DNA of 64,000 nt from Crossaster papposus (lineage: Eukaryota; Echinodermata; Asteroidea; Velatida; Solasteridae), in assembly GCA_037893245.1 (NCBI GenBank), contig JBAIAA010000810.1, positions 558,001 through 622,000 of the forward strand, read 5' to 3'. The position numbers and the translations under genes were made by a program. This document shows positions 54 through 26,300 of this stretch, in pieces. Positions within the stretch are counted from its first letter, which is position 1, and each line of letters opens with the position of its first letter. The notes beneath the pieces are model-generated. The model worked only from the letters and a program-made list of their open reading frames with translations, did not search any database and had not been told where the DNA came from.

Positions 54-2342
54 AAAAGCAGCCGCAAAAACCCAAATCAGGAGATGCGTATATAATTTAA
101 ATTATTAACTGGCGTTATACTTGTACACCATTAAATAAATAAATGCGTCTTAAATATTGCCTTAAATTACTGTTGATATTTCTTTGCATTTTTCCTTTCG
201 GTCCAGGGAACGGATCTCCGAAAAAAAACAAGTCTAAAGGTATGTTGTGTATCACATTGAGTGTTCAATTCTCAATGCAATGATCATTTGGATCTTGTCA
301 GTCATTATAATGTGGCATCGACATATATGTTTGGCAGCTCTTTTCATTCCACACAATGGGTCCATTTGGCAAGAATAAATGTGTTTTATTTACCGTTATT
401 CTTTGAGAATAATATAACAACAATGAGTTGTTCTGCAATTACAATTCTCTCAACGTAAGATTCCATAGTTGACTTTTTAAAATACATTTTTTTTTAAATC
501 CAGTTGGAAAATAAAACAACCTCGAGCTCAATATAAAATTGAATAAGATTAAAACTGCTGCAAACTGCTTACTGGCTGGAATGACCTTAAATATACAAAT
601 CAAATAAGTTAAGAGGGCCTAATATTTCGATCTTAACCAGATCTTTTCCATGTCTCTGAGAAATTTCTTGTTAAGATCGAAATATTAGGCCCTCTTAACT
701 TATTTGATCAATATAAAATTGATTGTAAGGGAACAAATTACTTCACCATTTCAAACTGCCCACTATAGACACGCTACCTTCTCAATCTTCTTTTCGTATC
801 CACGTTTGCAGGAAAGCACCCGCAGAAACCTAAATCAGGAGGTGCGTGTAATTGTTATTGGGCGTATAATTGTTAAACGTCATTTACTGGCCTTATTTCT
901 TTAAACACCATTAAATAAATAAATGCGTCTTAAATATTGTCTTAAAATACTGTGGATATTTTTTGCATTTTTCTTTCTGGTCCAGGAAACGGATCTCCGA
1001 AAAAGCCCAAGTCTAAAGGTATGTTGTGTATCACATTGAGTATTCAATTCTTAATGCAATGATCATTAAATCTTGTCAGTCATTAGGCATCGACATGTAT
1101 GTTTGGCAGCTCATTTAATTCCACACAATGGGTCCATTTTGGCAAGAGTAAATGTGTTTTATTTATCGTTATTCTTCGAGAAGAATATAACAACAATTAA
1201 TGAGTTGTTTTGCAATTACAATTCTCTCAACGTAAGATCCCATAGTTGACAGTTAAGATTTAGCATTTGAATCAGACAAACCGAATATTGTTCATTTTTA
1301 TCTCCGGTATTGAGGCGCGTTGACTTAACAATTTCAAACTGCCTACTAAACACGCTACATTCTAAATGTTCTCTTCGTTTTTATCTACGTTTGCAGGAAA
1401 TAATAAACCGAAGAAGCCTAATTCTGGAGGTGCGTATTATTGAATTTATTTAGTGGCGTTACGTTTTAACAATCGATGAATTGAAAAATTAAAAGATTCC
1501 TGAATGATGCTAAAATAAATTCGTAAACTTATTATTTCTGATTGTCTGTAATGTTTGTCTTCCTTTCTGCAGGCTTTTCAAGCAGTTCCAGGCAATCAAG
1601 AGGTGCGTATTGTAAAACAGAGTAACGGTTGGGAGACAAATTTTTTGTTTTGTTACTAAATTGTTTACTTCACCATTTCAAACTGCCCACTAAACACGCT
1701 ACCTTCTCAATCTTCTTTTCTTATCCACGTTTGCAGAAAAGCAGCCGCTGAAACCCAAATCAGGAGGTTCGTATAATTGAAGTTATTTACTGGCGTTACT
1801 TTTTTAAACATGCACCATTAAATAAATAAATAAATGCGTCTTAAATATTGCCTTAAAATACCGTTGTTATATTTTTGAATTTTTGTTTTTGATCCAGGAA
1901 ACGGATCTCCGAAAAAGCCCAAGTCTAAAGGTATGTTGTGTATCACATTGAGTATTCAATTCTCAATGCAATGATCATTTGGATCTTGTCAGTCATTAAA
2001 ATGTGGCGTCGACTTGTAATGTTTGGCAGCTCAATTTCATTCCACACAATTAGTCCATTTGGCAAGAATAAATGTGTTTTATTTATCGTTATTCTTCGAG
2101 AAGAATATAACAACAATGAGTTGTCCTGCAATTATAATTCTCTCAACGTAAGATCCCATAGTTGACAGTTATGATTTAGCATTTGAATCAGACAAACCGA
2201 AAACTTTTCATTTTTTTGCCCGGTATTGAGGCGCGTTGACTTAACAAATTCAAACTGCCTACTAAACATGCTACATTCTAAATATTATCTTCGTTTTTAT
2301 CTACGTTTGCAGGAAATAAACCGAAGAAGCCTCATTCTGGAG
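54..2342 (+). CDS. Microexon block 1 (11 microexons)
   Basis: Microexons, type and coordinates: A 54-83, B 207-239, A 812-841, B 986-1018, C 1397-1429, D 1573-1602, A 1737-1766, B 1898-1930, C 2313-2342. A encodes a basic decapeptide such as GKHPQKPKSG, B encodes GNGSPKKPKSK, C encodes GN(N)KPKKPNSG and D encodes GFSSSSRQSR. That is nine exons seen directly; the title count includes none inferred beyond these nine, so read it as nine. Each has a pyrimidine-rich TTTGCAG, GTCCAG or TCTGCAG acceptor and a GTGCGT or GTATGT donor. The exon at 54-83 is followed by AT at 84-85 where its relatives have GT, so it may be skipped or dead. Confidence 0.75.
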
Positions 2343-5300
2343 GTGCGTATAATTGCAGTCATGCTGCCCCTTTTCCCACACCCAGAATGTTCCAAGAAAT
2401 GTAATAATAATTAGTGTATCATCATTTATTACAGAAGAAGAAGAAGAAGTCTTCGAGTGCACGGGTGATACGAAAGAGGTGACAGTCACGACAGACGTCG
2501 ACACCACTGAGCCTCAAGAGTTCGAGATGGACAAGGAGGATCCGACAGATGTCATATTCCATTCCGGAGGTGGATTGTCGATCAAAATCCGTAAGGAGGT
2601 TTTTACATTGATGGCTTTAGATATTAAAATGTAATTGAGACTGTCAACCTATAGTGTTTAACTCCCGTAGACAAACGCTTAAAAACGACGCTCAGAAAAC
2701 GCCTGTATTTACGATTACAGCAGATGGCCTAAGCAATCCGTTTGCATTGTTAACGCCTCACTAAAAGCGTTAATTGTTGAGGAACATCAACTAATTTCCC
2801 CTTTTAAACGGTGTCGTTTCAGGGCCTTTTACATTGTAAATGCAATGTTCATATTTGTTGCTTTGCAAGTCAAATTGTATTTGCAAACAGCAGCAAATCA
2901 TCAATTGGTGGGCCTATACTTTGAAGCTATGTTTTACTTAGTGCATAATGAAACTAAACTGAAACCTATAAACAAAGCTTTTACTTAAGCAACTAACATC
3001 TCCACTCTGAAAATGTTAAAAGAGCTTTTGAACTGATGAACGAGAGCCACAAGTCAATCACGACTCATTACACGTCTACACAAGTGATCACAGTGCCTCG
3101 GAAGTCAATTTAACAAGTCATGATTTGTCATCAGTTATGGTAAATTATCTGTTCTTTCTTCAGAGGTTGATAAGACAGACGCTTACATCCTGAGCTCCTT
3201 GAACGTCAAAATCAAAACCGTCAAGCTGCCCAAGTGGTGCTGGAAGCTGCGTTCGCTGCGACTGATCGTAATATTCGTCACAGACGGTTTCAACGTCTTG
3301 GTTCGCTCTGCATCCACCGACACTCCAATAATGGAGTACCGAAAACCGGATCGACGCCAGTTTACATGTGGCTCCATTGGATTTAGGTCAAACGGCAAGA
3401 GACGATCCAAGCTTTACTACCGACACAAACGTAAGCCATCGTCTAATCTAATTTGTCATAATTGTTATTTTAAATGTATTTCTGCATTTGAGAAAAGTAA
3501 GTAATTATGTTTATTTTTCCAAATTACATGCATCAGTATGAGGGCGCTAATGTTCACACATCTTGATCTTGATCTTGATCGTTACATTCCTGATTTGTAA
3601 GCCGAATCGCTGCGAATAGCAATTCCTGGGTAAACCGGGGAATGGTTCTTGGCTGCGTTAAAGGTCGGAAGCGCCCCGACAATAAATCGCAATCATTCGG
3701 CTTGATTCGGTCGGTTTCGGCTTCCGATTCGTACATCGTTCTCGATTGTTCTTATTTTATTCTTAAGTTATTCTTACAAACAGCGAATCGGGCCTAATTT
3801 CTCCAAATGCCATCAAGAATTGTTATTCGGGATAGATCGTAGTATTCGTTGCAATAATTCAGGAATGTGTGACCTTGGCATAAACGACGCCATTTTCTAC
3901 TGATACAAACACTTGAAAAATCACTTTATCGAAAAAGTTTAGTATTTTTGCTTTTCTTTGAAAAATGAAATACATGTATAACAAAATCACTATTGACTAC
4001 ACTTTAAAATGTCATAGGGACAGCGCCCTCTTTTGTTAAGAGAACGGCCTATTAATTTGACGAATCTTTTATAGCAATATAAAATATGAAGCCCGTGCGA
4101 TCAAACTATGATATTTTTCTGTTTTGTCAATATTAATTTCAGCAAGATAAATTGTGTACCAAATACATTTCTATAACATCACTTTTTCATTTTCTCCTTT
4201 TGTCCAGTACGCAAAGGAAAAGGCAAAAAGGGTAAATTATTTTCATGGATTTTAAAAAGAAATTCATTTGTCGATGTTATTCTCTTAATGTGATACGCTA
4301 TACCCCCAGTATCGTCACGAAAACAGCTTGTTTTGATTGACAAGAATAATTAGCTGGAAAAAAACACAACCTCGAGCTCAATATAAAATTGATTGTAAGG
4401 GGACAAATTACTTCACCATTTCAAACTGCCCACTAAACACGCTACCTTCTCAATCTTCTTTTCTTGTCCACGTTTGCAGAAAAGCAGCCGCGGAAACCCA
4501 AATCAGGAGGTGCGTATAATTGAAGTTATTTACTGGCGTTACTTTTTTAAACAACATTAAATAAATAAATAAATAAATGCGTCTTAAAATAATATTGCCT
4601 TAAAATACTGTTGATATTTCTTCGCATTTTTCTTTTTGGTCCAGGAAACGGATTTCCGAAAAAGCCCAAGTCTAAAGGTTTCTTGTGTATCACATTTTTA
4701 ACAACCGACGAATTAAACAAATAAAAGATTCCTAAATGACGCTAAAATAAATGCATAAACTTATTATACCTGGTTGTCTGTAATGTTTGTCTTCCTTTCT
4801 GCAGGCTCTTCAAGCAGTTCCAGTCAATCACGAGGTGCGTATTGTAAAACAGAGTAACGATTGGGAGACAAATTGTTGGTTTTGTTACTAAATTGTTTAC
4901 TTCACCATTTCAAACTGCCCACTAAACACGCTACATTCTTAATCTTCTTTTCTAATCCACGTTTGCAGAAAAGCAGCCGCAAAAACACAAATCAGGAGGC
5001 GCGTATAATTGAAGTTATTTACTGGCGTTACATTTTTAAACACTATTAAATAAATAAATGCGTCTTAAATATTGCCTTACAATACTGTTGATATTTTTTT
5101 GCATTTTTCTTTTTGGTCCAGGAAACGGATCTCCGAAAAAGCCCAAGTCTAAAGGTATGTTGTGTATCACATTGAGTATTCAATTCTTAATGCAATGATC
5201 ATTAAATCTTGTCAGTCATTAGGCATCGACATGTATGTTTGGCAGCTCATTTAATTCCACACAATGGGTCCATTTTGGCAAGAGTAAATGTGTTTTATTT

Positions 5301-8300
5301 ATCGTTATTCTTCGAGAAGAATATAACAACAATTAATGAGTTGTTTTGCAATTACAATTCTCTCAACGTAAGATCCCATAGTTGACAGTTAAGATTTAGC
5401 ATTTGAATCAGACAAACCGAATATTGTTCATTTTTATCTCCGGTATTGAGGCGCGTTGACTTAACAATTTCAAACTGCCTACTAAACACGCTACATTCTA
5501 AATGTTCTCTTCGTTTTTATCTACGTTTGCAGGAAATAATAAACCGAAGAAGCCTAATTCTGGAGGTGCGTATTATTGAATTTATTTAGTGGCGTTACGT
5601 TTTAACAATCGATGAATTGAAAAATTAAAAGATTCCTGAATGATGCTAAAATAAATTCGTAAACTTATTATTTCTGATTGTCTGTAATGTTTGTCTTCCT
5701 TTCTGCAGGCTTTTCAAGCAGTTCCAGGCAATCAAGAGGTGCGTATTGTAAAACAGAGTAACGGTTGGGAGACAAATTTTTTGTTTTGTTACTAAATTGT
5801 TTACTTCACCATTTCAAACTGCCCACTAAACACGCTACCTTCTCAATCTTCTTTTCTTATCCACGTTTGCAGAAAAGCAGCCGCTGAAACCCAAATCAGG
5901 AGGTTCGTATAATTGAAGTTATTTACTGGCGTTACTTTTTTAAACATGCACCATTAAATAAATAAATAAATGCGTCTTAAATATTGCCTTAAAATACCGT
6001 TGTTATATTTTTGAATTTTTGTTTTTGATCCAGGAAACGGATCTCCGAAAAAGCCCAAGTCTAAAGGTATGTTGTGTATCACATTGAGTATTCAATTCTC
6101 AATGCAATGATCATTTGGATCTTGTCAGTCATTAAAATGTGGCGTCGACTTGTAATGTTTGGCAGCTCAATTTCATTCCACACAATTAGTCCATTTGGCA
6201 AGAATAAATGTGTTTTATTTATCGTTATTCTTCGAGAAGAATATAACAACAATGAGTTGTCCTGCAATTATAATTCTCTCAACGTAAGATCCCATAGTTG
6301 ACAGTTATGATTTAGCATTTGAATCAGACAAACCGAAAACTTTTCATTTTTTTGCCCGGTATTGAGGCGCGTTGACTTAACAAATTCAAACTGCCTACTA
6401 AACATGCTACATTCTAAATATTATCTTCGTTTTTATCTACGTTTGCAGGAAATAAACCGAAGAAGCCTCATTCTGGAGGTGCGTATAATTGCAGTCATGC
6501 TGCCCCTTTTCCCACACCCAGAATGTTCCAAGAAATGTAATAATAATTAGTGTATCATCATTTATTACAGAAGAAGAAGAAGAAGTCTTCGAGTGCACGG
6601 GTGATACGAAAGAGGTGACAGTCACGACAGACGTCGACACCACTGAGCCTCAAGAGTTCGAGATGGACAAGGAGGATCCGACAGATGTCATATTCCATTC
6701 CGGAGGTGGATTGTCGATCAAAATCCGTAAGGAGGTTTTTACATTGATGGCTTTAGATATTAAAATGTAATTGAGACTGTCAACCTATAGTGTTTAACTC
6801 CCGTAGACAAACGCTTAAAAACGACGCTCAGAAAACGCCTGTATTTACGATTACAGCAGATGGCCTAAGCAATCCGTTTGCATTGTTAACGCCTCACTAA
6901 AAGCGTTAATTGTTGAGGAACATCAACTAATTTCCCCTTTTAAACGGTGTCGTTTCAGGGCCTTTTACATTGTAAATGCAATGTTCATATTTGTTGCTTT
7001 GCAAGTCAAATTGTATTTGCAAACAGCAGCAAATCATCAATTGGTGGGCCTATACTTTGAAGCTATGTTTTACTTAGTGCATAATGAAACTAAACTGAAA
7101 CCTATAAACAAAGCTTTTACTTAAGCAACTAACATCTCCACTCTGAAAATGTTAAAAGAGCTTTTGAACTGATGAACGAGAGCCACAAGTCAATCACGAC
7201 TCATTACACGTCTACACAAGTGATCACAGTGCCTCGGAAGTCAATTTAACAAGTCATGATTTGTCATCAGTTATGGTAAATTATCTGTTCTTTCTTCAGA
7301 GGTTGATAAGACAGACGCTTACATCCTGAGCTCCTTGAACGTCAAAATCAAAACCGTCAAGCTGCCCAAGTGGTGCTGGAAGCTGCGTTCGCTGCGACTG
7401 ATCGTAATATTCGTCACAGACGGTTTCAACGTCTTGGTTCGCTCTGCATCCACCGACACTCCAATAATGGAGTACCGAAAACCGGATCGACGCCAGTTTA
7501 CATGTGGCTCCATTGGATTTAGGTCAAACGGCAAGAGACGATCCAAGCTTTACTACCGACACAAACGTAAGCCATCGTCTAATCTAATTTGTCATAATTG
7601 TTATTTTAAATGTATTTCTGCATTTGAGAAAAGTAAGTAATTATGTTTATTTTTCCAAATTACATGCATCAGTATGAGGGCGCTAATGTTCACACATCTT
7701 GATCTTGATCTTGATCGTTACATTCCTGATTTGTAAGCCGAATCGCTGCGAATAGCAATTCCTGGGTAAACCGGGGAATGGTTCTTGGCTGCGTTAAAGG
7801 TCGGAAGCGCCCCGACAATAAATCGCAATCATTCGGCTTGATTCGGTCGGTTTCGGCTTCCGATTCGTACATCGTTCTCGATTGTTCTTATTTTATTCTT
7901 AAGTTATTCTTACAAACAGCGAATCGGGCCTAATTTCTCCAAATGCCATCAAGAATTGTTATTCGGGATAGATCGTAGTATTCGTTGCAATAATTCAGGA
8001 ATGTGTGACCTTGGCATAAACGACGCCATTTTCTACTGATACAAACACTTGAAAAATCACTTTATCGAAAAAGTTTAGTATTTTTGCTTTTCTTTGAAAA
8101 ATGAAATACATGTATAACAAAATCACTATTGACTACACTTCAAAATGTCATAGGGACAGCGCCCTCTTTTGTTAAGAGAACGGCCTATTAATTTGACGAA
8201 TCTTTTATAGCAATATAAAATATGAAGCCCGTGCGATCAAACTATGATATTTTTCTGTTTTGTCAATATTAATTTCAGCAAGATAAATTGTGTACCAAAT

Positions 8301-11300
8301 ACATTTCTATAACATCACTTTTTCATTTTCTCCTTTTGTCCAGTACGCAAAGGAAAAGGCAAAAAGGGTAAATTATTTTCATGGATTTTAAAAAGAAATT
8401 CATTTGTCGATGTTATTCTCTTAATGTGATACGCTATACCCCCAGTATCGTCACGAAAACAGCTTGTTTTGATTGACAAGAATAATTAGCTGGAAAAAAA
8501 CACAACCTCGAGCTCAATATAAAATTGATTGTAAGGGGACAAATTACTTCACCATTTCAAACTGCCCACTAAACACACTACCTTCTCAATCTTCTTTTCT
8601 TGTCCACGTTTGCAGAAAAGCAGCCGCGGAAACCCAAATCAGGAGGTGCGTATAATTGAAGTTATTTACTGGCGTTACTTTTTTAAACAACATTAAATAA
8701 ATAAATAAATAAATGCGTCTTAAAATAATATTGCCTTAAAATACTGTTGATATTTCTTCGCATTTTTCTTTTTGGTCCAGGAAACGGATTTCCGAAAAAG
8801 CCCAAGTCTAAAGGTTTCTTGTGTATCACATTTTTAACAACCGACGAATTAAACAAATAAAAGATTCCTAAATGACGCTAAAATAAATGCGTAAACTTAT
8901 TATACCTGGTTGTCTGTAATGTTTGTCTTCCTTTCTGCAGGCTCTTCAAGCAGTTCCAGTCAATCACGAGGTGCGTATTGTAAAACAGAGTAACGATTGG
9001 GAGACAAATTGTTGGTTTTGTTACTAAATTGTTTACTTCACCATTTCAAACTGCCCACTAAACACGCTACATTCTTAATCTTCTTTTCTAATCCACGTTT
9101 GCAGAAAAGCAGCCGCAAAAACACAAATCAGGAGGCGCGTATAATTGAAGTTATTTACTGGCGTTACATTTTTAAACACTATTAAATAAATAAATGCGTC
9201 TTAAATATTGCCTTACAATACTGTTGATATTTTTTTGCATTTTTCTTTTTGGTCCAGGAAACGGATCTCCGAAAAAGCCCAAGTCTAAAGGTATGTTGTG
9301 TATCACATTGAGTATTCAATTATCAATGCAATGATCATTTGAATCTTGTCAGTCACTATAATGTGGCGTCGACATGTATGTTTGGCAGCTCATTTAATTC
9401 CACACAATGGGTCCATTTTGGCAAGAGTAGATGTGTTTTATTTATCGTTATTCTTCGAGAAGAATATAACAACAATGAGTTGTTTTGCAATTACAATTCT
9501 CTCAACGTAAGATCCCATAGTTGACAGTTATGATTTAGCATTTGAATCAGACAAACCGAAAACTGTTCATTTTTATCTCCGGTATTGAGGCGCGTTGACT
9601 TAACAATTTCAAACTGCCTACTAAACATGCTACATTCTGAATGTTCTCTTCGTTTTTATCTACGTTTGCAGGAAATAAACCGAAGAAGCATCATTCTGGA
9701 GGTGCGTATTATTGAAGTTATTTAGTGGCGTTATACGTTTCAACAACCGATAAATTGAAAAATTAAAAGATTCCTGAATGACGCTAAAATAAATGCGTAA
9801 ACTTATTATACCTGATTGTCTGTAATGTTTGTCTTCCTTTCTGCAGGCTCTTCAAGCAGTTCCAGTCAATCACGAGGTGCGTATTGTAAAACAGAGTAAC
9901 GATTGGGAGACAAATTGTTGGTTTTGTTACTAAATTGTTTACTTCACCATTTCAAACTGCCCACTAAACACGCTACATTCTTAATCTTCTTTTCTAATCC
10001 ACGTTTGCAGAAAAGCAGCCGCAAAAACACAAATCAGGAGGCGCGTATAATTGAAGTTATTTACTGGCGTTACATTTTTAAACACTATTAAATAAATAAA
10101 TGCGTCTTAAATATTGCCTTACAATACTGTTGATATTTTTTTGCATTTTTCTTTTTGGTCCAGGAAACGGATCTCCGAAAAAGCCCAAGTCTAAAGGTAT
10201 GCTGTGTATCACATTGAGTATTCAATTATCAATGCAATGATCATTTGATCTTGTCAGTCATTATAATGTGGCGTCGACATGTATGTTTGGCAGCTCATTT
10301 AATTCCACACAATGGGTCCATTTTGGCAAGAGTAAATGTGTTTTATTTATCGTTATTCTTCGAGAAGAATATAACAACAATGAGTTGTTTTGCAATTACA
10401 ATTCTCTCAACGTAAGATCCCATAGTTGACAGTTATGATTTAGCATTTGAATCAGACAAACCGAAAACTCTTCATTTTTATCTCCGGTATTGAGGCGCGT
10501 TGACTTAACAATTTCAAACTGCCTACTAAACATGCTACATTCTGAATGTTCTCTTCGTTTTTATCTACGTTTGCAGGAAATAAACCGAAGAAGCATCATT
10601 CTGGAGGTGCGTATTATTGAAGTTATTTAGTGGCGTTATACGTTTCAACAACCGATAAATTGAAAAATTAAAAGATTCCTGAATGACGCTAAAATAAATG
10701 CGTAAACTTATTATACCTGATTGTCTGTAATGTTTGTCTTCCTTTCTGCAGGCTCTTCAAGCAGTTCCAGTCAATCACGAGGTGCGTATTGTAAAACAGA
10801 GTAACGATTGGGAGACAAATTGTTGGTTTTGTTACTAAATTGTTTACTTCACCATTTCAAACTGCCCACTAAACACGCTACATTCTTAATCTTCTTTTCT
10901 AATCCACGTTTGCAGAAAAGCAGCCGCAAAAACACAAATCAGGAGGCGCGTATAATTGAAGTTATTTACTGGCGTTACATTTTTAAACACTATTAAATAA
11001 ATAAATGCGTCTTAAATATTGCCTTACAATACTGTTGATATTTTTTTGCATTTTTCTTTTTGGTCCAGGAAACGGATCTCCGAAAAAGCCCAAGTCTAAA
11101 GGTATGCTGTGTATCACATTGAGTATTCAATTATCAATGCAATGATCATTTGATCTTGTCAGTCATTATAATGTGGCGTCGACATGTATGTTTGGCAGCT
11201 CATTTAATTCCACACAATGGGTCCATTTTGGCAAGAGTAAATGTGTTTTATTTATCGTTATTCTTCGAGAAGAATATAACAACAATGAGTTGTTTTGCAA

Positions 11301-14300
11301 TTACAATTCTCTCAACGTAAGATCCCATAGTTGACAGTTATGATTTAGCATTTGAATCAGACAAACCGAAAACTCTTCATTTTTATCTCCGGTATTGAGG
11401 CGCGTTGACTTAACAATTTCAAACTGCCTACTAAACATGCTACATTCTGAATGTTCTCTTCGTTTTTATCTACGTTTGCAGGAAATAAACCGAAGAAGCC
11501 TAATTCTGGAGGTGCGTATTATTGAAGTTATTTAGTGGCGTTACGTTTCAACAACCGATAAATTGAAAAATTAAAAGATTCCTGAATGACGCTAAAATAA
11601 ATGCGTAAACTTATTATACCTGATTGTCTGTAATGTTTGTCTTCCTTTCTGCAGGCTCTTCAAGCAGTTCCAGTCAATCACGAGGTGCGTATTGTAAAAC
11701 AGAGTAACGATTGGGAGACAAATTGTTGGTTTTGTTACTAAATTGTTTACTTCACCATTTCAAACTGCCCACTAAACACGCTACCTTCTCAATCTTCTTT
11801 TCTTATCCACGTTTGCAGAAAAGCAGCCGCGAAAACCCAAATCAGGAGGCGCGTATAATTGAAGTTATTTACTGGCGTTACTTTTTTAAACACTATTAAA
11901 TAAATAAATGCGTCTTAAATATTGCCTTACAATACTGTTGATATTTTTTTGCATTTTTCTTTTTGGTCCAGGAAACGGATCTCCGAAAAAGCCCAAGTCT
12001 AAAGGTATGCTGTGTATCACATTGATTATTCAATTATCAATGCAATGATCATTTGAATCTTGTCAGTCACTATAATGTGGCGTCGACATGTATGTTTGGC
12101 AGCTCATTTAATTCCACACAATGGGTCCATTTTGGCAAGAGTAAATGTGTTTTATTTATCGTTATTCTTCGAGAAGAATATAACAACAATGAGTTGTTTT
12201 GCAATTACAATTCTCTCAACGTAAGATCCCATAGTTGACAGTTATGATTTAGCATTTGAATCAGACAAACCGAAAACTCTTCATTTTCCCCCCGGTATTG
12301 AGGCGCGTTGACTTAACAATTTCAAACTGCCTACTAAACATGCTATACATTATAAATGTTCTCTTCGTTTTTATCTACGTTTGCAGGAAATAAACCGAAG
12401 AAGCATCATTCTGGAGGTGCGTATTATTGAAGTTATTTAGTGGCGTTATACGTTTTAACAATCGATGAATTGAACAATTAAAAGATTCCTGAATGATGCT
12501 ACAATAAATTCGTAAACTTATTATTTCTGATTGTCTGTAATGTTTGTCTTCCTTTCTGCAGGCTTTTCAAGCAGTTCCAGGCAATCAAAAGGTGCGTATT
12601 GTAAAACAGAGTAACGATTGGAAGACAAATTGTTGGTTTTGTTACTAAATTGTTTACTTCACCATTTCAAACTGCCCACTAAACACGCTACATTCTTAAT
12701 CTTCTTTTCTAATCCACGTTTGCAGAAAAGCAGCCGCAAAAACACAAATCAGGAGGCGCGTATAATTGAAGTTATTTACTGGCGTTACATTTTTAAACAC
12801 TATTAAATAAATAAATGCCTCTTAAATATTGCCTTACAATACTGTTGATATTTTTTTGCATTTTTCTTTTTGGTCCAGGAAACGGATCTCCGAAAAAGCC
12901 CAAGTCTAAAGGTATGTTGTGTATCACATTGAGTATTCAATTATCAATGCAATGATCATTTGAATCTTGTCAGTCACTATAATGTGGCGTCGACATGTAT
13001 GTTTGGCAGCTCATTTAATTCCACACAATGGGTTCATTTTGGCAAGAGTAAATGTGTTTTATTTATCGTTATTCTTCGAGAAGAATATAACAACAATGAG
13101 TTGTTTTGCAATTACAATTCTCTCAACGTAAGATCCCATAGTTGACAGTTATGATTTAGCATTTGAATCAGACAAACCGAAAACTGTTCATTTTTATCTC
13201 CGGTATTGAGGCGCGTTGACTTAACAATTTCAAACTGCCTACTAAACATGCTACATTCTAAATGTTCTCTTCGTTTTTATCTACGTTTGCAGGAAATAAA
13301 CCGAAGAAGCATCATTCTGGAGGTGCGTATTATTGAAGTTATTTAGTGGCGTTATACGTTTCAACAACCGATAAATTGAAAAATTAAAAGATTCCTGAAT
13401 GACGCTAAAATAAATGCGTAAACTTATTATACCTGATTGTCTGTAATGTTTGTCTTCCTTTCTGCAGGCTCTTCAAGCAGTTCCAGTCAATCACGAGGTG
13501 CGTATTGTAAAACAGAGTAACGATTGGGAGACAAATTGTTGGTTTTGTTACTAAATTGTTTACTTCACCATTTCAAACTGCCCACTAAACACGCTACATT
13601 CTTAATCTTCTTTTCTAATCCACGTTTGCAGAAAAGCAGCCGCAAAAACACAAATCAGGAGGCGCGTATAATTGAAGTTATTTACTGGCGTTACATTTTT
13701 AAACACTATTAAATAAATAAATGCGTCTTAAATATTGCCTTACAATACTGTTGATATTTTTTTGCATTTTTCTTTTTGGTCCAGGAAACGGATCTCCGAA
13801 AAAGCCCAAGTCTAAAGGTATGCTGTGTATCACATTGAGTATTCAATTATCAATGCAATGATCATTTGATCTTGTCAGTCATTATAATGTGGCGTCGACA
13901 TGTATGTTTGGCAGCTCATTTAATTCCACACAATGGGTCCATTTTGGCAAGAGTAAATGTGTTTTATTTATCGTTATTCTTCGAGAAGAATATAACAACA
14001 ATGAGTTGTTTTGCAATTACAATTCTCTCAACGTAAGATCCCATAGTTGACAGTTATGATTTAGCATTTGAATCAGACAAACCGAAAACTCTTCATTTTT
14101 ATCTCCGGTATTGAGGCGCGTTGACTTAACAATTTCAAACTGCCTACTAAACATGCTACATTCTGAATGTTCTCTTCGTTTTTATCTACGTTTGCAGGAA
14201 ATAAACCGAAGAAGCATCATTCTGGAGGTGCGTATTATTGAAGTTATTTAGTGGCGTTACGTTTCAACAACCGATAAATTGAAAAAATTAAAAGATTCCT

Positions 14301-17300
14301 GAATGACGCTAAAATAAATGCGTAAACTTATTATACCTGATTGTCTGTAATGTTTGTCTTCCTTTCTGCAGGCTCTTCAAGCAGTTCCAGTCAATCACGA
14401 GGTGCGTATTGTAAAACAGAGTAACGATTGGGAGACAAATTGTTGGTTTTGTTACTAAATTGTTTACTTCACCATTTCAAACTGCCCACTAAACACGCTA
14501 CCTTCTCAATCTTCTTTTCTTATCCACGTTTGCAGAAAAGCAGCCGCGAAAACCCAAATCAGGAGGCGCGTATAATTGAAGTTATTTACTGGCGTTACTT
14601 TTTTAAACACTATTAAATAAATAAATGCGTCTTAAATATTGCCTTACAATACTGTTGATATTTTTTTGCATTTTTCTTTTTGGTCCAGGAAACGGATCTC
14701 CGAAAAAGCCCAAGTCTAAAGGTATGCTGTGTATCACATTGATTATTCAATTATCAATGCAATGATCATTTGAATCTTGTCAGTCACTATAATGTGGCGT
14801 CGACATGTATGTTTGGCAGCTCATTTAATTCCACACAATGGGTCCATTTTGGCAAGAGTAGATGTGTTTTATTTATCGTTATTCTTCGAGAAGAATATAA
14901 CAACAATGAGTTGTTTTGCAATTACAATTCTCTCAACGTAAGATCCCATAGTTGACAGTTATGATTTAGCATTTGAATCAGACAAACCGAAAACTGTTCA
15001 TTTTTATCTCCGGTATTGAGGCGCGTTGACTTAACAATTTCAAACTGCCTACTAAACATGCTACATTCTGAATGTTCTCTTCGTTTTTATCTACGTTTGC
15101 AGGAAATAAACCGAAGAAGCCTAATTCTGGAGGTGCGTATTATTGAAGTTATTTAGTGGCGTTACGTTTTAACAACCGATGAATTAAAAAAATTAAAAGA
15201 ATTCCTGAATGACGCTAAAATAAATGCGTAAACTTATTAAACCTGATTGTCTGTAATGTTTGTCTTCCTTTCTGCAGGCTCTTCAAGCAGTTCCAGTCAA
15301 TCACGAGGTGCGTATTGTAAAACAGAGTAACGATTGGGAGACAAATTGTTGGTTTTGTTACTAAATTGTTTACTTCACCATTTCAAACTGCCCACTAAAC
15401 ACGCTACCTTCTCAATCTTCTTTTCTTATCCACGTTTGCAGAAAAGCAGCCGCGGAAACCCAAATCAGGAGGCGCGTATAATTGAAGTTATTTACTGGCG
15501 TTACTTTTTTAAACAACATTAAATAAATAAATGCGTCTTAAATATTGCCTTACAATACTGTTGATATTTTTTTGCATTTTTCTTTTTGGTCCAGGAAACG
15601 GATCTCCGAAAAAGCCCAAGTCTAAAGGTATGTTGTGTATCACATTGATTATTAAATTTCATTGCAATGATCATTTGGATCTTGTCAGTCATTAGAATGT
15701 GGCGTCGACATGTATGTTTGGCAGCTCATTTAATTCCACACAATGGGTCCATTTTGGCAAGAATAAATGTGTTTTAATTACCGTTATTCTTCGAGAAGAA
15801 TATAACAACAATGAGTTGTTTTGCAATTACAATTCTCTCAACGTAAGATCCCATAGTTGACAGTTATGATTTAGCATTTGAATCAGACAAACCGAAAACT
15901 CTTCATTTTCCCCCCGGTATTGAGGCGCGTTGACTTAACAATTTCAAACTGCCTACTAAACATGCTATACATTCTAAATGTTCTCTTCGTTTTTATCTAC
16001 GTTTGCAGGAAATAATAAACAGACGAAGCCTAATTCTGGAGGTGCGTATTATTGAATTTATTTAGTGGCGTTACGTTTTAACAATCGATGAATTGAACAA
16101 TTAAAAGATTCCTGAATGATGCTACAATAAATTCGTAAACTTATTATTTCTGATTGTCTGTAATGTTTGTCTTCCTTTCTGCAGGCTTTTCAAGCAGTTC
16201 TAGGCAATCAAAAGGTGCGTATTGTAAAACAGAGTAACGATTGGGAGACAAATTGTTGGTTTTGTTACTAAATTGTTTACTTCACCATTTCAAACTGCCC
16301 ACTAAACACGCTACATTCTTAATCTTCTTTTCTAATCCACGTTTGCAGAAAAGCAGCCGCAAAAACACAAATCAGGAGGCGCGTATAATTGAAGTTATTT
16401 ACTGGCGTTACATTTTTAAACACTATTAAATAAATAAATGCGTCTTAAATATTGCCTTACAATACTGTTGATATTTTTTTGCATTTTTCTTTTTGGTCCA
16501 GGAAACGGATCTCCGAAAAAGCCCAAGTCTAAAGGTATGCTGTGTATCACATTGAGTATTCAATTATCAATGCAATGATCATTTGAATCTTGTCAGTCAC
16601 TATAATGTGGCGTCGACATGTATGTTTGGCAGCTCATTTAATTCCACACAATGGGTCCATTTTGGCAAGAGTAAATGTGTTTTATTTATCGTTATTCTTC
16701 GAGAAGAATATAACAACAATGAGTTGTTTTGCAATTACAATTCTCTCAACGTAAGATCCCATAGTTGACAGTTATGATTTAGCATTTGAATCAGACAAAC
16801 CGAAAACTCTTCATTTTTATCTCCGGTATTGAGGCGCGTTGACTTAACAATTTCAAACTGCCTACTAAACACGCTACATTCTAAATGTTCTCTTCGTTTT
16901 TATCTACGTTTGCAGGAAATAAACCGAAGAAGCCTAATTCTGGAGGTGCGTATTATTGAAGTTATTTAGTGGCGTTACGTTTCAACAATCGATGAATTGA
17001 AAAATTAAAAGATTCCTGAATGACGCTAAAATAAATGCGTAAACTTATTATACCTGATTGTCTGTAATGTTTGTCTTCCTTTCTGCAGGCTCTTCAAGCA
17101 GTTCCAGTCAATCACGAGGTGCGTATTGTAAAACAGAGTAACGATTGGGAGACAAATTGTTGGTTTTGTTACTAAATTGTTTACTTCACCATTTCAAACT
17201 GCCCACTAAACACGCTACCTTCTCAATCTTCTTTTCTTATCCACGTTTGCAGAAAAGCAGCCGCGAAAACCCAAATCAGGAGGCGCGTATAATTGAAGTT

Positions 17301-20300
17301 ATTTACTGGCGTTACTTTTTTAAACACTATTAAATAAATAAATGCGTCTTAAATATTGCCTTACAATACTGTTGATATTTTTTTGCATTTTTCTTTTTGG
17401 TCCAGGAAACGGATCTCCGAAAAAGCCCAAGTCTAAAGGTATGTTGTGTATCACATTGATTATTCAATTTTCATTGCAATGATCATTTGGATCTTGTCAG
17501 TCATTATAATGTGGCGTCGACATGTATGTTTGGCAGCTCATTTAATTCCACACAATGGGTCCATTTTGGCAAGAATAAATGTGTTTTAATTACCGTTATT
17601 CTTTGAGAATAATATAACAACAATGAGTTGTTCTGCAATTACAATTCTCTCAACGTAAGATTCCATAGTTGACTTTTTAAAATACATTTTTTTTTAAATC
17701 CAGTTGGAAAATAAAACAACCTCGAGCTCAATATAAAATTGAATAAGATTAAAACTGCTGCAAACTGCTTACTGGCTGGAATGACCTTAAATATACAAAT
17801 CAAATAAGTTAAGAGGGCCTAATATTTCGATCTTAACCAGATCTTTTTCTTATGTCTCTGAGAAATTTCTTGTTAAGATCGAAATATTACGCCCTCTTAA
17901 CTTATTTGATCAATATAAAATTGATTGTAAGGGAACAAATTACTTCACCATTTCAAACTGCCCACTATAGACACGCTACCTTCTCAATCTTCTTTTCGTA
18001 TCCACGTTTGTAGGAAAGCACCCGCAGAAACCTAAATCAGGAGGTGCGTGTAATTGTTATTGGGCGTATAAATGTTAAACGTCATTTACTGGCCTTATTT
18101 CTTTAAACACCATTAAATAAATAAATGCGTCTTAAATATTGTCTTAAAATACTGTGGATATTTTTTGCATTTTTCTTTTTGGTCCAGGAAACGGATCTCC
18201 GAAAAAGCCCAAGTCTAAAGGTATGTTGTGTATCACATTGAGTATTTAATTCTCAATGTAATGATCATTAAATCTTGTCAGTCATTAGGCATCGACATGT
18301 ATGTTTGGCAGCTCACTTAATTCCACACAATGGGTCCATTTGGCAAGAGTAAATGTGTTTTATTTATCGTTATTCTTCGAGAAGAATATAACAACAATGA
18401 GTTGTTTTGCAATTACAATTCTCTCAACGTAAGATCCCATAGTTGACAGTTATGATTTAGCATTTGAATCAGACAAACCGAAAACTCTTCATTTTTTCCC
18501 AAGTATTGAGGCGCGTTGACTTAACAATTTCAAACTGCCTACTAAACACGCTACATTCTAAATGTTCTCTTCGTTTTTATCTACGTTTGCAGGAAATAAT
18601 AAACAGAAGAAGCCTAATTCTGGAGGTGCGTATTATTGAATTTATTTAGTGGCGTTACGTTTTAACAATCGATGAATTGAAAAATTAAAAGATTCCTGAA
18701 TGATGCTAAAATAAATTCGTAAACTTATTATTTCTGATTGTCTGTAATGTTTGTCTTCCTTTCTGCAGGCTCTTCAAGCAGTTCCAGGCAATCAAGAGGT
18801 GCGTATTGTAAAACAGAGTAACGGTTGGGAGACAAATTGTTGGTTTTGTTACTAAATTGTTTACTTCACCATTTCAAACTGCCCACTAAACACGCTACAT
18901 TCTTAATCTTCTTTTCTCATCCACGTTTGCAGGAAAGCAGCCGCAAAAACCCAAATCAGGAGGTTCGTATAATTGAAGTTATTTACTGGCGTTATACTTG
19001 TACACCATTAAATAAATAAATGCGTCTTAAATATTGCCTTAAATTACTGTTGATATTTCTTTGCATTTTTCTTTTTGGTCCAGGAAACGGATCTCCGAAA
19101 AAGCCCAAGTCTAAAGGTATGTTGTGTATCACATTGAGTATTCAATTCTCAATGCAATGATCATTTGGATCTTGTCAGTCATTAGAATGTGGCGTCGACA
19201 TGTCATTTCATTCCACACAATGGGTCCATTTTGGCAAGAATAAATGTGTTTTATTTACCGTTATTCTTCGAGAAGAATATAACAACAATGAGTTGTTCTG
19301 CAATTACAATTCTCTCAACGTAAGATCTCATAGTTGACAGTTATGATTTAGCATTTGAATCAGACAAACCGAAAACTCTTCATTTTTATCTCCGGTATTG
19401 AGGCGCGTTGACTTAACAATTTCAAACTGCCTACTAAACACGTTACATTCTGAATATTATCTTCGTTTTTATCTCGTTTGCAGGAAATAATAAACCGAAG
19501 AAGCCTATCTCTGGAGGTGCGTATTATTGAAGTTATTTAGTGGCGTTACGTTTTAACAATCGATGAATTGAAAAATTAAAAGATTCCTGAATGATGCTAA
19601 AATAAATTCGTAAACTTATTATACCTGATTTTGTTGGTCGAGGTCTGTTCAGATGACGAATTTCAGATATAAGTTCATAACTGTAACATCAGTTCCCCAC
19701 AGATCCATTTGTTTCTGTTGAATTTGTTTTGGATTTGTTTTGGGTTTCCAGGCTCCAGACTCAACCGTCCAAAGAAAGACCCTCAAGGTAATTATTTGAT
19801 TTCTGACGAAAGATTAGATTTTCGAGTGGGTGTATGATTTATAATTGACTCGCAACTCACTCATAATGACTGATGAAAAACCTCGAAAGCGGAACCAATC
19901 AAAACCAATCAAAACCAATCAAAACCAATCAAAACCAATCAAAACCAATCAAAACCAATCAAAACCAATCAAAACCAATCAAAACCAATCAAAACTACTA
20001 AATAGACACTGAAATCATTTTAAAAATCGATCAAACCTAAAATAAAAACCACCACAACTAATTAAAACGAAGCCAATCAAAACACTTCAACTCCTTTTAC
20101 CAGTCTTCGAGAGTAGCAGCGGCTCCGAGCAGATCATCGCCGAGAAAGTAGACCTTGGTGAGCCCCAGGAGTTCGAGATCGAAAGGGGTGAAACCGTGGA
20201 TGTCATCCTGCACACTGGAGGTGCAGAGCTAATAAAGATCGGTAAGTCTTTCCTGTTCGGCCTGTATTCTGTTTTTCCTATTACCAGAGTTGTATATGAA

Positions 20301-23300
20301 GTTCATGCAAGTCCTGTCACAAGTCCAGTCACAAGTCTTTTCATAAAGCCCGTCGCAAGTAACTAGTTAGGATTTAATTTAATTTAAATAAATTGTTGGT
20401 GTTTTTTCTCTCTTTAATTTGTTGTCATTCACGTAGCATTACATAAGTGTTTATATATATATTTTTTTATTCTTGTGATTTCATCACTGTTAAAGGAATG
20501 GAAATAAATGTTCTGATGAATTGAATTGAACAATGACAAAGGGATGCTATTACCAAAGCATAGTGACTTGACTTGAGACTAAAGGACTTGTGATGGACTT
20601 GCAGGGACTCAAATACAACTCTTTCCATTACGTTAACTGCAAGAATTGTTTTGGTCGTGTGTTTTGACCTGGCCCACAAGGGAAGTATAATGTTAACTGT
20701 CGTCTTTAAAAAGGTTGTCTTGTTATGTTCGCTAGGACTGCAGCGTCATCACGTACTTAAATATAATACGCGGTGTAAGTATACTTATAAATATGAACCC
20801 GCGAACAGATACATTTACGTTTTTGAATGAATCCCAAAAAAATTAAGTACTTTCTTAACCTTTCAGAGATCGAGAGCAGATACATCTACATCCTGAGCTC
20901 CCTTGGCGTCAAACTTGAGACCGCCGAACTACCCTCGTGGTCCTGGGAACTGCAGACGCTCCGAATCGTCGTACGTTTTGTCACCTACGGCTTTAATGTC
21001 TTCCTACAATCGTCGTCCAAAGAGGTGAAGATCTTGGAGTACATCCCGTCCGAGCAGCGCACGTTCGTATGCGGCTCAATTGGCTTCGAGGCCAAGGGAA
21101 CGAAGACAACGAAGCTGACCTACGAACACAACGGAAATGGAGGTAAAGGCTTGTTGTTTTTCCTTGCTAGGCAAATTGCGCCCTCTGTTTTTCTGTGGTC
21201 ATTTTGGTATTGCAAACAAATCCTAATTGCCAACTATCTTCTAAGCATTTTGCTTCAAATATCGATTATTATTTTCGAACAAAATTTGAGAAAGACCATG
21301 TACGGTGTACAAATACATTATATTGTTTGCATTAGCAGGCCTTTACACATTGTTAAAAAGTGTTTTTTATCATTGCTTCAATTTGCACGCTCCAATTCAG
21401 TTGTGCATATACTGGGACCCCACCCCCACGAATTTGAATTGAATTAATTCATTACTTGCCCTTTTTGTGTTCGATGTCTCATTCGAAAGCTCATAACAAA
21501 TACGATGCAGTGCTAGAATTTGTTTTATTCAATTTGAAAATTTATTTTTTAGTGTGCAACCCCCTAAAAGCACAGACATACCAACTTATAATATGACACA
21601 AACACGTTTGGGCGTCGCTAAAGGTGGAGTTAGGAGTTGTGATCTCCAATAGACCCGAAATCTAATGACAAAATGTCTTTGTTGATATATGCGCTCACAT
21701 ATAGGAGGACGCGAAGTCTGGACGCCAGACGAAGTAGAGATGCTGGCACTCACAGGACAGCGTATATGAAAAAAAAGCGTGACGTAACTAGGTCTTGGGT
21801 CTATTCGACTCAAAAACATTCGTATAGCAAGAAAAATCGTGGTATTAATTGTTGGCAGGAGAGACCTAAACAGCGCCCCCTGGTGTCCAATGTTGACGTT
21901 CCCAAATAATCTCCAAAATTAACTCTTTCTACCAATAGCACTTAAATGGTCTCATTTTTAATTTTTGTTACGTAATTTTATTCATTTGGTTTTAGTGGAC
22001 GAGACGCATCATGTCAGCGAGACTGTAATTGGTAAGTGTTAAACAAAGTTGTATATTAATAACTTTGTGATAACCTGTGCTTATTTGGGATGATTATGAT
22101 GACTTTTAGTGACTTGTTGGAGTGACCCGTGGTCACCTGTAATGATCTAAGTCTACCGCAAACGTGTCTAGCGCGAAAGATAGCTTGCGATAGCTTGTGG
22201 TGATTTGTGTCAACTTGTAAACATACTTGTGATGTCTTCCGATGACTCGTGGTAACTTGAGACTGACTCGATAACGACGAACATAACGTGCTTGAAATGC
22301 CTTGAAATAATCAAAATCTTAAAACCACAATGGAATTTAACTTTTACAGAGACAAAAGTAGAAGTAGAAAGCAAGACAATCGTCGTCGAGCCGGACCAGT
22401 ACGAGCAGATCGAGGGAATCGCTGGCTACGAGACAAGTCTGAGACTCGCCTTGAACCCAGAAGACGGCATCACATTCCGCTTGGCTGAGAAGAGAGGAGG
22501 CCAGGGCAAAACACTGCTCTTTGGTAAATATGAAGAAACTGATTACTGCAATCATTGTCTTTTATTTTGGTGTAGTTAGGAAAATAATTGGAGAAAATAT
22601 TAATTTTACTGGCACAAATAGCCCTAACCCCAAAATGCCTCAAAACTGCCTCAAAATGCCTCAAAACTCAAATCTGTTTCAGAGAAGGAGAAACATTGTG
22701 TTATACCTGCATTGGAAGGACTTCGTTTGTTCAGAGGATTGCACAGAGAATGTAATGCTTATACACTATTACCTCCGGAATCGCCATTCAAAATGACTCT
22801 TTACACTAGAGCGAATAAATACATTTTCGCAGAATGTAGTCGTCAAAACGCTTTCTCCCATCCACGATTTTACAGTCATAGAGAGTGAGTGGAGCTACAT
22901 GCAGTACAACGGTCAGGATCTGGGGGAGAGATTCGGCACCGGAGGAGGCATCCTCAACAGCGGCAAGAAGCCTTTCTTGATCAAGCTGCCGGGCTCCGCC
23001 AGCAGCGAGTTCTGGTTCGAGCTCTGGTTCGAAGGTCAAAGCAGCTCGTACATGAGACAGATGATCACCGACTCGTCCTTCCGTCCGAGATACGTCGATG
23101 TGGCTATCCACGTGACGGAGGTCGTGGAACAAGTGGTGGAAATAGTCTGTAAGTTGCGGGTGTGCTTTTTTAAATCTCAATATTAAAAGCATGCAAATTA
23201 ATGTCAGGAATTGTACGGTTAGGGCTTTGATTTTTTGTTTTTCTATAATTATAGCGTCTCGCCTTTATCACGAATATTATAGTTCTTACAGAAAATGCAG

Positions 23301-26300
23301 TTTTGTTACCTAACTTTAGTGAAGTAATCAAGAGTTTAGTTTCCCCCTCAAAATGATAAACATAACGCCTCGTCTCAATTTAAGTTGCGGACATGGCATC
23401 TGGTAGAAGTTTCAAAACGTTCACAACTTTCCCGCAATCTTCCTGCAACGAGGTTATCAGTATCGATGAGTCAAGCGGGACAAATTCACAGTGAACAATT
23501 TTACCCGCAACTTGTCCGGAACTGGTCCCGGATACCAAGGGAGACAGATCCTAACTTAGCCTACTTGAAGACGCAACAATCACAGCCTATTTCTCACAGT
23601 GGTCGTGACCAAGTTTTGCCGAGCTATATCGTGGTCATCTGAAACAAAGGTCGTTATTTAAAGGGAAACTCAACCCATAGTTTATAATTGCATAATGTTA
23701 AAGAGTGTCAATTGCCATTGTGACTTTTTATTTCATTTTTATCGGTTTCGGTAATCATATAAAACAGAGACTTTCTCGCACTGCGCTCATCGTCATGCGA
23801 GCCGTCATTTTGTTCTGGTTTATCGGTACATCCGAGATATTGTGACGTAGTGTCTGCACCATCAGTACACGAAGCCCGATCGATAGCGGCCCTGCACACG
23901 CAATGAATGCAAGTGAACCCTTTTGTGTAAGGCATAGTGTATAAATGTGTACTGTACATGTGAAAGTGGGCTCAAAATCATACGGGGAAGGACCTGATGC
24001 CATAATTACTAGCTCACAGATTTTTATTTATTCTTCTCGTCAAGTCGATATTCTGCACAGAAATGCAATACATGTACTGGCAATAGTCGGGCGCCGTACA
24101 ACATACGTCTGTATAATGTAGTTGGCCCCGTCAAGGTGAGATACCAGTGCGAACAACGGGCAATAAAGCGATGTGTATTGAGGTGCAGACACTACGTCAT
24201 AATTTCCCGGGCGAGGCGGGAAATTTGAACAATATGGCCGCGCCCTTGTACTCCTGAATGGCAATAAATCGTGAATATAATAAGCGTGTGTCGTTCTCGA
24301 TAACAAATCAAAAAAAATTCTCTGCGGAGTCAGTATGTTACCAAATATTCTTTTAGACTACGTAAAATATTATTGAGCCTGGAAATTCCCTTTAATTGGT
24401 CAATGCCCTCCATTTCTTGTTAACTTATTACATTTCTTTACCCAGGTTGTGCCCAACCGGTTTAACAATTGGTTTCCATTGGGGCCCTGTATACATTATT
24501 ATATAAAAAAGGATACAAACAAATAATAATAATAATAATTAAAAAAAAAAATAGAAGCAGGAAGGGTCTTTGGACGCTGGCGATATCATTTCCTATTTAT
24601 TTCACCATCTTAGCGGTTTTTTTTTAGTTCAATTTAGTATCGTTTTTGGAATGTTGGGAATACTGATAACAAAACCCAGCTACGTGTAATTCAAAACTAT
24701 TTTCTATGATGCACGGTAGATCCCAATTGGATTCCAATGGGGGAAGTGACCGACGAGAAATACCAGTTTCAGGTGGATTCAGCCGAGGTGGCTCTGATAG
24801 CTGTACAACCTAACAATATTGGGGAACTCGGGCAGATCGTTGCAGGTAAGACATGTTTTATAGTTTGTTTTTTTTACTTTTTCCCCTGCCTATGATGCTA
24901 ACCTGGAAGTCGACAATTATCAATACAAAAACTTATAATTATTCTGTATATTATAATTTAGTATTTCTCAACAACACACAGAAACCTCACCAAAAGATAC
25001 AATTTGCTGACTGTGCTGTAGTGCACCGGTAATCATTGCTAAACTGTGGTGCAGGTATTTGTTTCATCTTGCATTGTTTATAAGGCGCGCAGGGAAATGT
25101 TCAACTGACATTTAAAACTGCTATATTAGGCAATGGACAAGTCGTTAAGTCTGGGAGGTTGGACACCATTTCGTAAGAGACTTTAATAACAACGTGTTAA
25201 TAACAACCGTAGCCACAAACAAGATCCCTTCTTGTTTACACCTGATCCCGGCTTAATTCAGAAATACAACATTAAAGGGATCGCATACGTTTGGTAATTA
25301 CTCCAAAAAGTAATGGCAATAAAAACTTACTTGGTAAGCAGTACAGCAGCTTTGGATAGTATAATGCATTTTTAGAAACTTTTCACTTCGAAGTACTGCG
25401 ATTATTGAAAAAGATTGGAATCTGAGAAGCGTTACTGCAGTGACGTTTCTCAGATTGTGTATTTCAATGCAGATTATTCTTCCTGCGTGGACATAACCGC
25501 TCCAGATTTTCGGCAATATCTCAAAATTGCTACCACCTTTTGAAATGAAATTTGTACAGGTTAGTTTTATGGTATATATCTATAACTATATAGGATTGAA
25601 ACAGACAGTGGGTTTCAATTACCAAACGTATACAATCCCTTTGAAGGTCGTAAACACCATTTTGCTTTTGCTTTAATTTTCGAAAATGGATGAGATTCAT
25701 AATGTATAGTAAATATTGTGACGTTGACCTGTGTTCGTAGAAGCTGAAAAAAACTATGAAAAAAAGTGCTGTTCTTGCAGTCTGGTTCCTTGACTTCCTT
25801 CAGACGAATTTAATAAATTGGGGCGGTGTTTAAAAATGGTCAGCTTTTTACAACGATTGCTGCCGGCCGCCAATCGTTTAAAACTGTTACAAAAGTGTTT
25901 GTTTTTTTCGTTAAACCACATCCAATCAGGTGCCGTGATTTCACACGATGCTTGAGACTGTTATTCACTTACAGTCAAGTAAGGTATTTCATAATAATTC
26001 ACTATTTTCTTTCTCCATATTTGCAAATGGTGTATACTACCTTTCCCTATATTACAAAGCACCCGATTCAATCGCGACGAACTAGGCCTAAATAGAGTCG
26101 ACCCAGATAGGCTACTGTGTCAATTTAACATTCCTTGCATTGAATGGAAATCTTCGCAATAAATATTTGATTCCTCGCGACTCTGGAACGCCACCTAACT
26201 TCCGTTTACTACTCAGAGTTCGGAAGTCCAAACAGTCCCGGTTGCAGAATCCAGAAATGCAACGACATGGAAGCCACAGACTGCAAGACTGTCATGGAAG

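Follow-up and report, generated by a model that had tools for sequence, protein, structure and literature searches.

A microexon array in the middle of a sea star gene for a putative footprint-type modular protein

Arrays of small in-frame exons that encode low-complexity spacers are already known from the schistosome micro-exon genes (MEGs), the PEVK region of titin, and tropoelastin. In MEGs, symmetric exons of 6–36 bp make up ~80% of the coding region (PMC5825161). Titin PEVK is an unstructured spacer rich in P, E, V, and K, with many differentially used exons, highly compatible splice sites, and a triplicated exon block (PMC11514934, PMC6105519). In tropoelastin, each low-complexity domain, including the Lys-Pro cross-linking domains, derives from a single exon, and splicing is alternative (PMC7947355). 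We analyzed a 64,000-nt stretch of the genome of the sea star Crossaster papposus (contig JBAIAA010000810.1, here C810, positions 558001-622000; the window) that contains an array of phase 1-1 microexons. The array forms the middle of a modelled 54.7-kb asteroid gene of 155 exons (C810:530596-585286), which probably encodes a secreted modular protein, most likely an adhesive (footprint) protein of the tube feet, of the Sfp3/7/8 kind.

Such footprint proteins have been described in Asterias rubens (PMC9382459; sequence records OP067638-OP067644). Sfp8 (1,367 aa) carries two FAMeT domains together with WAP (several repeats) and antistasin domains, Sfp7 carries two FAMeT, two EGF, and one hyalin domain, and Sfp3 (1,184 aa) consists of repetitive EGF, FAMeT, and WAP/antistasin-type domains. 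AC2 glands produce Sfp7 and Sfp8, which both have predicted disorder and presumably make up the primer layer. On A. rubens chromosome 6, seven Sfp sequences are grouped, and repetitive sequence and “potential splicing variants” hampered the elongation of some Sfp transcripts (PMC9382459).

The Crossaster gene resembles MEGs in its short symmetric exons, its putatively secreted product, and its suitability for splice variation. Unlike MEGs, it has 42% of its modelled coding bases in microexons, its tandem copies are near-identical, and it includes large folded domains. In contrast to titin, a muscle protein, it is of secreted type, with EGF, WAP, antistasin, and FAMeT domains and microexons of 30–33 nt; no Ig or FN3 domain, as found beside titin PEVK, was matched among the gene segments scanned (part of the exons). 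It differs from tropoelastin in that its linkers contain no hydrophobic V-containing domains and no alternation of hydrophobic and KP/KA domains, and its copies are more numerous (human ELN has 34 exons) and more alike. The density, uniformity, and cargo turnover of the array look new; such an array was not named in the titles and abstract openings of the literature searched, most subscription journals and all supplements being beyond reach. If the gene is expressed as modelled, few coding regions known to us would be divided as finely, with 116 of its 155 exons measuring 29–33 nt.

The microexon array and the gene around it

To search for array exons, five consensuses of exon plus splice sites (one each for A, B, and D and two for the lengths of C) were matched without gaps to both strands. 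Exactly 67 microexons were found in the window, all on the plus strand from 54 to 19516: 19 A (30 nt), 19 B (33 nt), 15 C (30 or 33 nt), and 14 D (30 nt). This count agrees with a first, sequence-only reading of the window, which had reported about 67 microexons of four types and 30–33 nt, phase 1-1 throughout. All 67 were indeed of phase 1-1 with no stop in that frame, and the two alternative frames had a stop in 2/67 and 37/67 exons. The commonest peptides were EKQPQKHKSG and EKQPRKPKSG for A, GNGSPKKPKSK for B, GNKPKKHHSG for C, and GSSSSSSQSR for D. The array was neither a single run nor confined to the window. The 67 exons formed three runs of 9, 10, and 48, with an identical X1-X2-X3 module in each of the two gaps (2435-4231 and 6571-8367), and 49 further microexons were located 5′ of the window, where the array extends 12.5 kb beyond the edge. 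The total was thus 116 (32 A, 32 B, 26 C, and 26 D), arranged in four blocks of 34, 24, 10, and 48, every block starting with ABD, ending with ABC, and preceded by an X module. Except for one 29-nt A exon, all 116 were of phase 1-1, and no stop was present in any of the 115 in-frame microexons. Additional phase 1-1 microexons of 24 nt (two) and 36 nt (two) were also found (Table 1); the end of the first 36-nt one is the position 19787 at which the sequence-only reading had closed the array.

When the five defective A exons were left out (150 modelled exons), splicing of the model gave one open frame of 2,779 codons without an internal stop, which argues that the array is more than chance. The domain order was leader, FAMeT, EGF, Cys-rich, three EGF, WAP, five antistasin, four units of X domain plus microexon linker, a fifth X-like domain, and C-terminal exons. 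Phases in the FAMeT domain were mixed, and from the first EGF exon to the last-but-one exon all were 1-1 apart from the 29-nt A exon. The symmetric phase means that duplication, loss, or skipping of a cassette causes no frameshift; the earlier claim that any combination keeps the frame therefore holds for the intact microexons, each of which is skippable without frame loss. The common strand, phase, and open frame support the view that all exons belong to one gene, and these features together would predict a single transcript.

The FAMeT domain was matched by Pfam PF12248 (Methyltransf_FA) with E = 3.6e-13 (exons at C810:532541-534023, joined by hand). EGF gave E = 2.7e-9 and 2.5e-5 (the two exons scanned of the four EGF exons), WAP E = 3e-14 in its one intact exon, and antistasin exceeded the Pfam cut-off in 5/5 exons (E 7e-6 to 7.6e-10). 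A candidate signal peptide, MATSIFTVFMLAAITATAIA, begins at the ATG at C810:530596. This hydrophobic leader was one of seven candidates from a crude pattern scan and was chosen because a gtaag donor and the FAMeT exons come after it. Pfam detected one FAMeT domain in the gene, and three C-terminal segments gave no Pfam match above cut-off. The likeness of the C-terminal exons to FAMeT was by eye only; BLASTP of one pair gave E = 2.4, and Pfam returned nothing. Neither the 449-aa tail (6701 candidates) nor a 165-aa linker (7624 candidates) had a protein match at E <= 0.001, and PDB sequences gave no match at E <= 1.

The linkers of the four blocks were 351, 239, 104, and 496 aa long, with 103, 71, 31, and 142 K+R against 10, 5, 3, and 11 D+E. 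They consisted of K+P+S+G to 76–77%, were strongly basic, and contained no C, W, Y, or V; in the window, K, S, G, P, N, and Q accounted for about 90% of linker residues. From this composition, the linkers should be disordered polycations. We propose that the 116 microexons spell four flexible polycationic linkers, predicted to be disordered, which would act between the domains as spacers and as surface- or anion-binding segments.

The gene might encode a secreted elastic or skeletal matrix protein, with a titin-PEVK- or elastin-like spacer or as a biomineral-matrix protein with FAMeT, rather than an adhesive. Titin PEVK has K/P-rich unstructured spacers from many exons (PMC11514934, PMC6105519), elastin has KP domains from single exons (PMC7947355), and FAMeT domains occur in mollusc biomineral proteins (PMC9382459). 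We consider this rather unlikely; the set of WAP, antistasin, FAMeT, and EGF, with HYR exons nearby, is closer to the footprint catalogue.

Growth, variation, and splicing of the array

The nine ABCD cassettes at 9105-17252 were 903–907 bp each, roughly 14% exon, and 95.5–99.8% alike, introns having been copied with the exons, which bears out the proposal that the array grew in tandem by exon-intron cassettes. Positions 1001-5136 and 5137-9272 were tandem copies with a 4136-bp period and 3 mismatches in 4136 bases, the product of either a recent event or an assembly duplication. In addition, 1-2359 was 94% like 17200-19533, and the A and C cassettes were paralogous (77% over 167 nt including intron flanks). 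Repeats of such different sizes indicate that duplication operated at more than one scale. The simplest mechanism would be unequal exchange, with most breakpoints falling in introns; between cassettes that are ~86% intron, such exchange would lengthen or shorten the linkers. The array shows a route to long low-complexity segments, namely duplication of mostly intronic DNA rather than coding minisatellites. The near-identity of the 4136-bp copies (3 differing sites) and of some cassettes (99.8%) could also mean that mis-joined repeats or haplotypes inflated the copy number. Such an artefact is very improbable, as most core cassettes differ by about 0.5–4.5% and the four blocks are unequal in length.

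The conserved frames of the microexons had been taken as an argument for selection, but comparison of the two compartments showed that exons diverge as fast as introns, an outcome that the sequence-only reading had itself listed as refuting. Mean pairwise differences among the 116 exons were 0.063 (A), 0.022 (B), 0.062 (C), and 0.051 (D), and those of the introns 0.058 (AB), 0.036 (BC), 0.038 (CD), and 0.022 (DA). Substitutions made 28/123 columns variable in exons, compared with 116/679 in intron interiors (P = 0.16), and the ratio of replacement to silent changes in microexons was 21:7, where neutrality predicts 2.54:1 (P = 0.84). In view of the exon/intron variation, in the window and in the full array, and of this ratio, purifying selection on microexon residues was rejected; the same ratio gave no indication of diversifying selection, which was likewise rejected. 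Between the paralogous A and C cassettes, mismatches were 10/30 in exons and 24/133 in flanks (P = 0.08), so exons were not slower. By contrast, exons had 1 frameshifting indel next to 29 substitutions, and introns had 28 next to 146 (one-sided P = 0.047). Signs of constraint were thus seen only in the frame and spliceability of the microexons. Residue identity would be nearly free, with the frame and the spliceability of B, C, and D maintained. In the X domain, X2 paralogues differed at the first, second, and third position in 32, 24, and 46 of 89 codons, respectively, which indicates that this domain is constrained; X1 and X2 across the four copies showed two replacement and five silent changes.

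Lower variability of acceptors than of intron interiors, apparent in the window (8/80 versus 167/734 columns, gaps counted, P = 0.006), was lost on the full array with substitutions only (12/80 versus 116/679, P = 0.75). With gap columns, the full array gave 13/80 for acceptors and 31/126 for exons versus 376/762 for introns (both P < 1e-6), values inflated by one 176-nt intron deletion.

Splice sites had been described as good throughout. This was correct for 55 of the 67 window donors, which were GT, whereas 11 were GC and 1 was AT, and all 12 non-GT donors belonged to A exons. Over the full array, the 32 A donors comprised 18 GC, 9 GTGCGT, 4 GTTCGT, and 1 AT, and 3 of the 32 A acceptors were AT. 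B donors were all GT (17 GTATGT, 11 GTATGC, and 4 GTTTCT), and C (26/26) and D (26/26) donors were all GTGCGT. An AG acceptor, a GTGCGT donor, and a length of 30 nt were combined in only 6/32 A exons. An exon was scored as broken if it lacked an AG acceptor or a GT or GC donor, had a length not divisible by three, or contained a stop. By this definition, 5/32 A exons and 0/84 B, C, and D exons were broken (P = 0.0013, counted by copies). The non-GT donors, the breakage, and the small number of fully regular copies suggest that A exons, with the poorest splice sites, may often be skipped or may be decaying.

These features also bear on whether the locus is, as the sequence-only reading suggested, a combinatorial isoform generator, in which microexons would be chosen in many combinations to yield a diverse family of linkers. 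The symmetry of all intact microexons and the variable or broken A sites (18 GC, 4 GTTCGT, and 1 AT donor, and 3 AT acceptors of 32) would suit this role, GC donors are reported to be enriched in alternatively spliced genes (PMC2490688), and “potential splicing variants” are mentioned for Asterias Sfp transcripts (PMC9382459). The C and D donors are uniform, however, and the B donors are all GT in three variants, with no sign of choice among copies; moreover, peptides within each type are near-identical, so different combinations would mostly alter length. We regard this role as unlikely, and it would be compatible with a footprint protein. The array makes it possible to test how the splicing machinery handles a hundred near-identical exons in one gene.

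The X2 exon was used to search the 1.02 Gb of the genome. Seven matches at E <= 0.001 (eight candidates scored) were obtained, all on C810: five in the array gene and two on the opposite strand near 471.6 and 482.2 kb. The latter belong to a sister gene on the minus strand (C810:458001-482500) built of ~2.97-kb tandem cassettes that are 96–98% alike. Parts of its introns matched the B cassette at 79–82% over 146–204 nt in 13 places, and all of the B-like exons found by pattern (12/12) were without a GT donor. In one copy, the B exon had 9/33 mismatches and its flanks 24/167 (P = 0.08). A filtered scan yielded seven candidate phase 1-1 exons of 78–114 nt encoding (GGNK)n. The sister-gene counts are lower bounds for sequence from 458001 on. 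The intron chassis thus seems to outlive the exon: part of the intron cassette is kept and the B donor is absent. What duplicates and endures may therefore be the intron, with the exons as replaceable cargo. Tentatively, a phase-1 intron chassis (~0.9–3 kb) might be the heritable unit that multiplies in an adhesive-type gene cluster and swaps its microexon cargo (KPKS- or S-rich here, GGNK in the sister gene). Linkers could then lengthen, shorten, or gain new sequence without a frame break, and splicing of GC-donor A exons might tune linker charge and length by tissue.

A related possibility is that the cassettes spread like a satellite DNA of introns, in which case most exons would be pseudo-exons that splicing passes over. 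Exons that vary as fast as introns, replacement changes at the neutral level, and the 12/12 donorless B-like exons inside intron sequence still 79–82% alike are consistent with such a passenger array. It is nevertheless quite unlikely given that 0/84 B, C, and D exons were broken, that the 115 in-frame exons were free of stops, and that frameshifting indels were rarer in exons than in introns.

Comparison with footprint proteins

The gene shares with Sfp3, Sfp7, and Sfp8 the FAMeT, EGF, WAP, and antistasin modules, predicted disorder (Sfp7 and Sfp8), and gene clustering on one chromosome, a likeness judged from the described domain sets (PMC9382459); its candidate signal peptide would also fit. 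This domain set, with HYR exons and FAMeT halves elsewhere in the window, fits the footprint catalogue. HYR exons exceeded the Pfam cut-off from 50475 onward, and the FAMeT halves at 37488-37796 and 39031-39369 fell below it (17 of 24.2 bits). In the HYR region, the acceptor was readable in 7 of the 11 open reading frames listed, all of phase 1, and the donor also in 6 of those. Phase 1-1 therefore appears ordinary for extracellular modules; the array exons stand out by how small and how numerous they are. A microexon array is not described for Sfp3, Sfp7, or Sfp8 in the parts of the paper covered, and the words “exon” and “lysine” are absent from its main text (PMC9382459). Such an array might explain the difficult assembly of some footprint transcripts.

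Several points weigh against this assignment. The gene is known here from genomic sequence alone. At ~2,800 aa, its product would be far longer than Sfp8 (1,367 aa) and Sfp3 (1,184 aa), one FAMeT domain was detectable by Pfam compared with two in Sfp7 and in Sfp8, and one intact WAP was found compared with several WAP repeats in Sfp8 (PMC9382459). The X domain had no Pfam match, and the predicted X2 model was poor (mean predicted local distance difference test score 50.9, alignment of two sequences). The deficit of frameshifting indels is marginal. The bias of breakage toward A is weaker when counted by events (P about 0.02), since a single acceptor change is common to three of the five broken copies and the independent events number ~3–4. 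Counts of matches to the U1 consensus (A 5–6 of 9, B 5–7, and C and D 6) overlapped those of the other exons of the gene (5–8), so the weakness of A donors lies only in GC or AT at +1/+2.

Mapped features and neighboring sequence

Table 1. Mapped features of the array gene in window coordinates
Feature	Position	Strand	Remark
Array block 2, window part, 9 microexons ABABCDABC	54..2342	+	By consensus matching; other 15 exons of the block upstream of the window; starts A 54, B 207, A 812, B 986, C 1397, D 1573, A 1737, B 1898, C 2313
A exon	54..83	+	AT in place of GT donor; probably not spliceable
X1 domain exon, 156 nt	2435..2590	+	Phase 1-1; third of four gene copies
X2 domain exon, 267 nt	3164..3430	+	Phase 1-1; 42/89 residues identical to tail copy at 20867
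X3 microexon, 24 nt	4208..4231	+	LRKGKGKK; phase 1-1
Array block 3, 10 microexons ABDABCDABC	4480..6478	+	Starts 4480, 4645, 4805, 4969, 5122, 5533, 5709, 5873, 6034, 6449
X1, fourth copy	6571..6726	+	Identical to 2435-2590
X2, fourth copy	7300..7566	+	Identical to 3164-3430
X3, fourth copy	8344..8367	+	
Array block 4, 48 microexons	8616..19516	+	ABD, nine ABCD, AB, ABCD, ABC
36-nt microexon E (GSRLNRPKKDPQ)	19752..19787	+	Phase 1-1
X1-like exon	20104..20241	+	C-terminal domain copy
X2-like exon	20867..21142	+	C-terminal domain copy
36-nt microexon (VDETHHVSETVI)	21996..22031	+	Phase 1-1
C-terminal exon	22350..22523	+	Phase 1-1; without Pfam family
C-terminal exon	22876..23148	+	Phase 1-1; without Pfam family
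C-terminal exon	24720..24845	+	Phase 1-1; without Pfam family
C-terminal exon	26217..26498	+	Phase 1-1; without Pfam family
Last coding exon	27279..27286	+	Stop TAA at 27284-27286

Within the array, an inverted repeat resembling a miniature inverted-repeat transposable element was observed at 592-715 (55-nt arms, 89% complementary), in an AB unit without C and D. A similar sequence was noted by eye only near 17765-17905, within the 17.2–19.5 kb block. The intron directly 3′ of the array contains a perfect 10-bp satellite, AACCAATCAA, at 19893-19995. Elsewhere, an X1 relic was found at L010:2834-2937 (93% over 104 nt), and near L010 5320-5400 an antistasin exon appeared, by eye, to be cut short at the X1 upstream intron. 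The relic and the shortened exon may be remnants of the recombination from which the array arose. Further tandem repeats, in pairs of ~0.55 kb and longer with 80–97% identity, were present at C810:490413-503078.

The FAMeT halves and HYR exons lie in 36900-64000, where exons were of phase 1-1 as far as read, and this region perhaps holds a second footprint-like gene. Between its HYR exons, ~123 copies of an 11-bp unit, TCGCAAGTCTG, at 56395-57745 were open in all three plus frames, and a tRNA-Thr gene was located at 58193-58266.

Under code 9, the mitochondrial contig of the assembly contained full-length frames for COX1, ND4, and ND5; 16S, ND2, and ND1 lay on the strand opposite COX1, COX2, ATP6, COX3, ND4, and ND5 (COX1 identified by Pfam, 16S by Rfam, and the rest by eye from translations). 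We take this order, with 16S, ND2, and ND1 inverted relative to COX1, to be that of asteroids. A codon check of COX1 for code 9, aimed at AAA and made against a bacterial-type reference only, aligned TGA with W in 11/16 cases. Another contig of the same assembly, C8, contained COX1-like genes that the standard code reads without a stop, one of them identical to mitochondrial COX1 at 193/502 positions, and may be a bacterial contig from a symbiont or contaminant.

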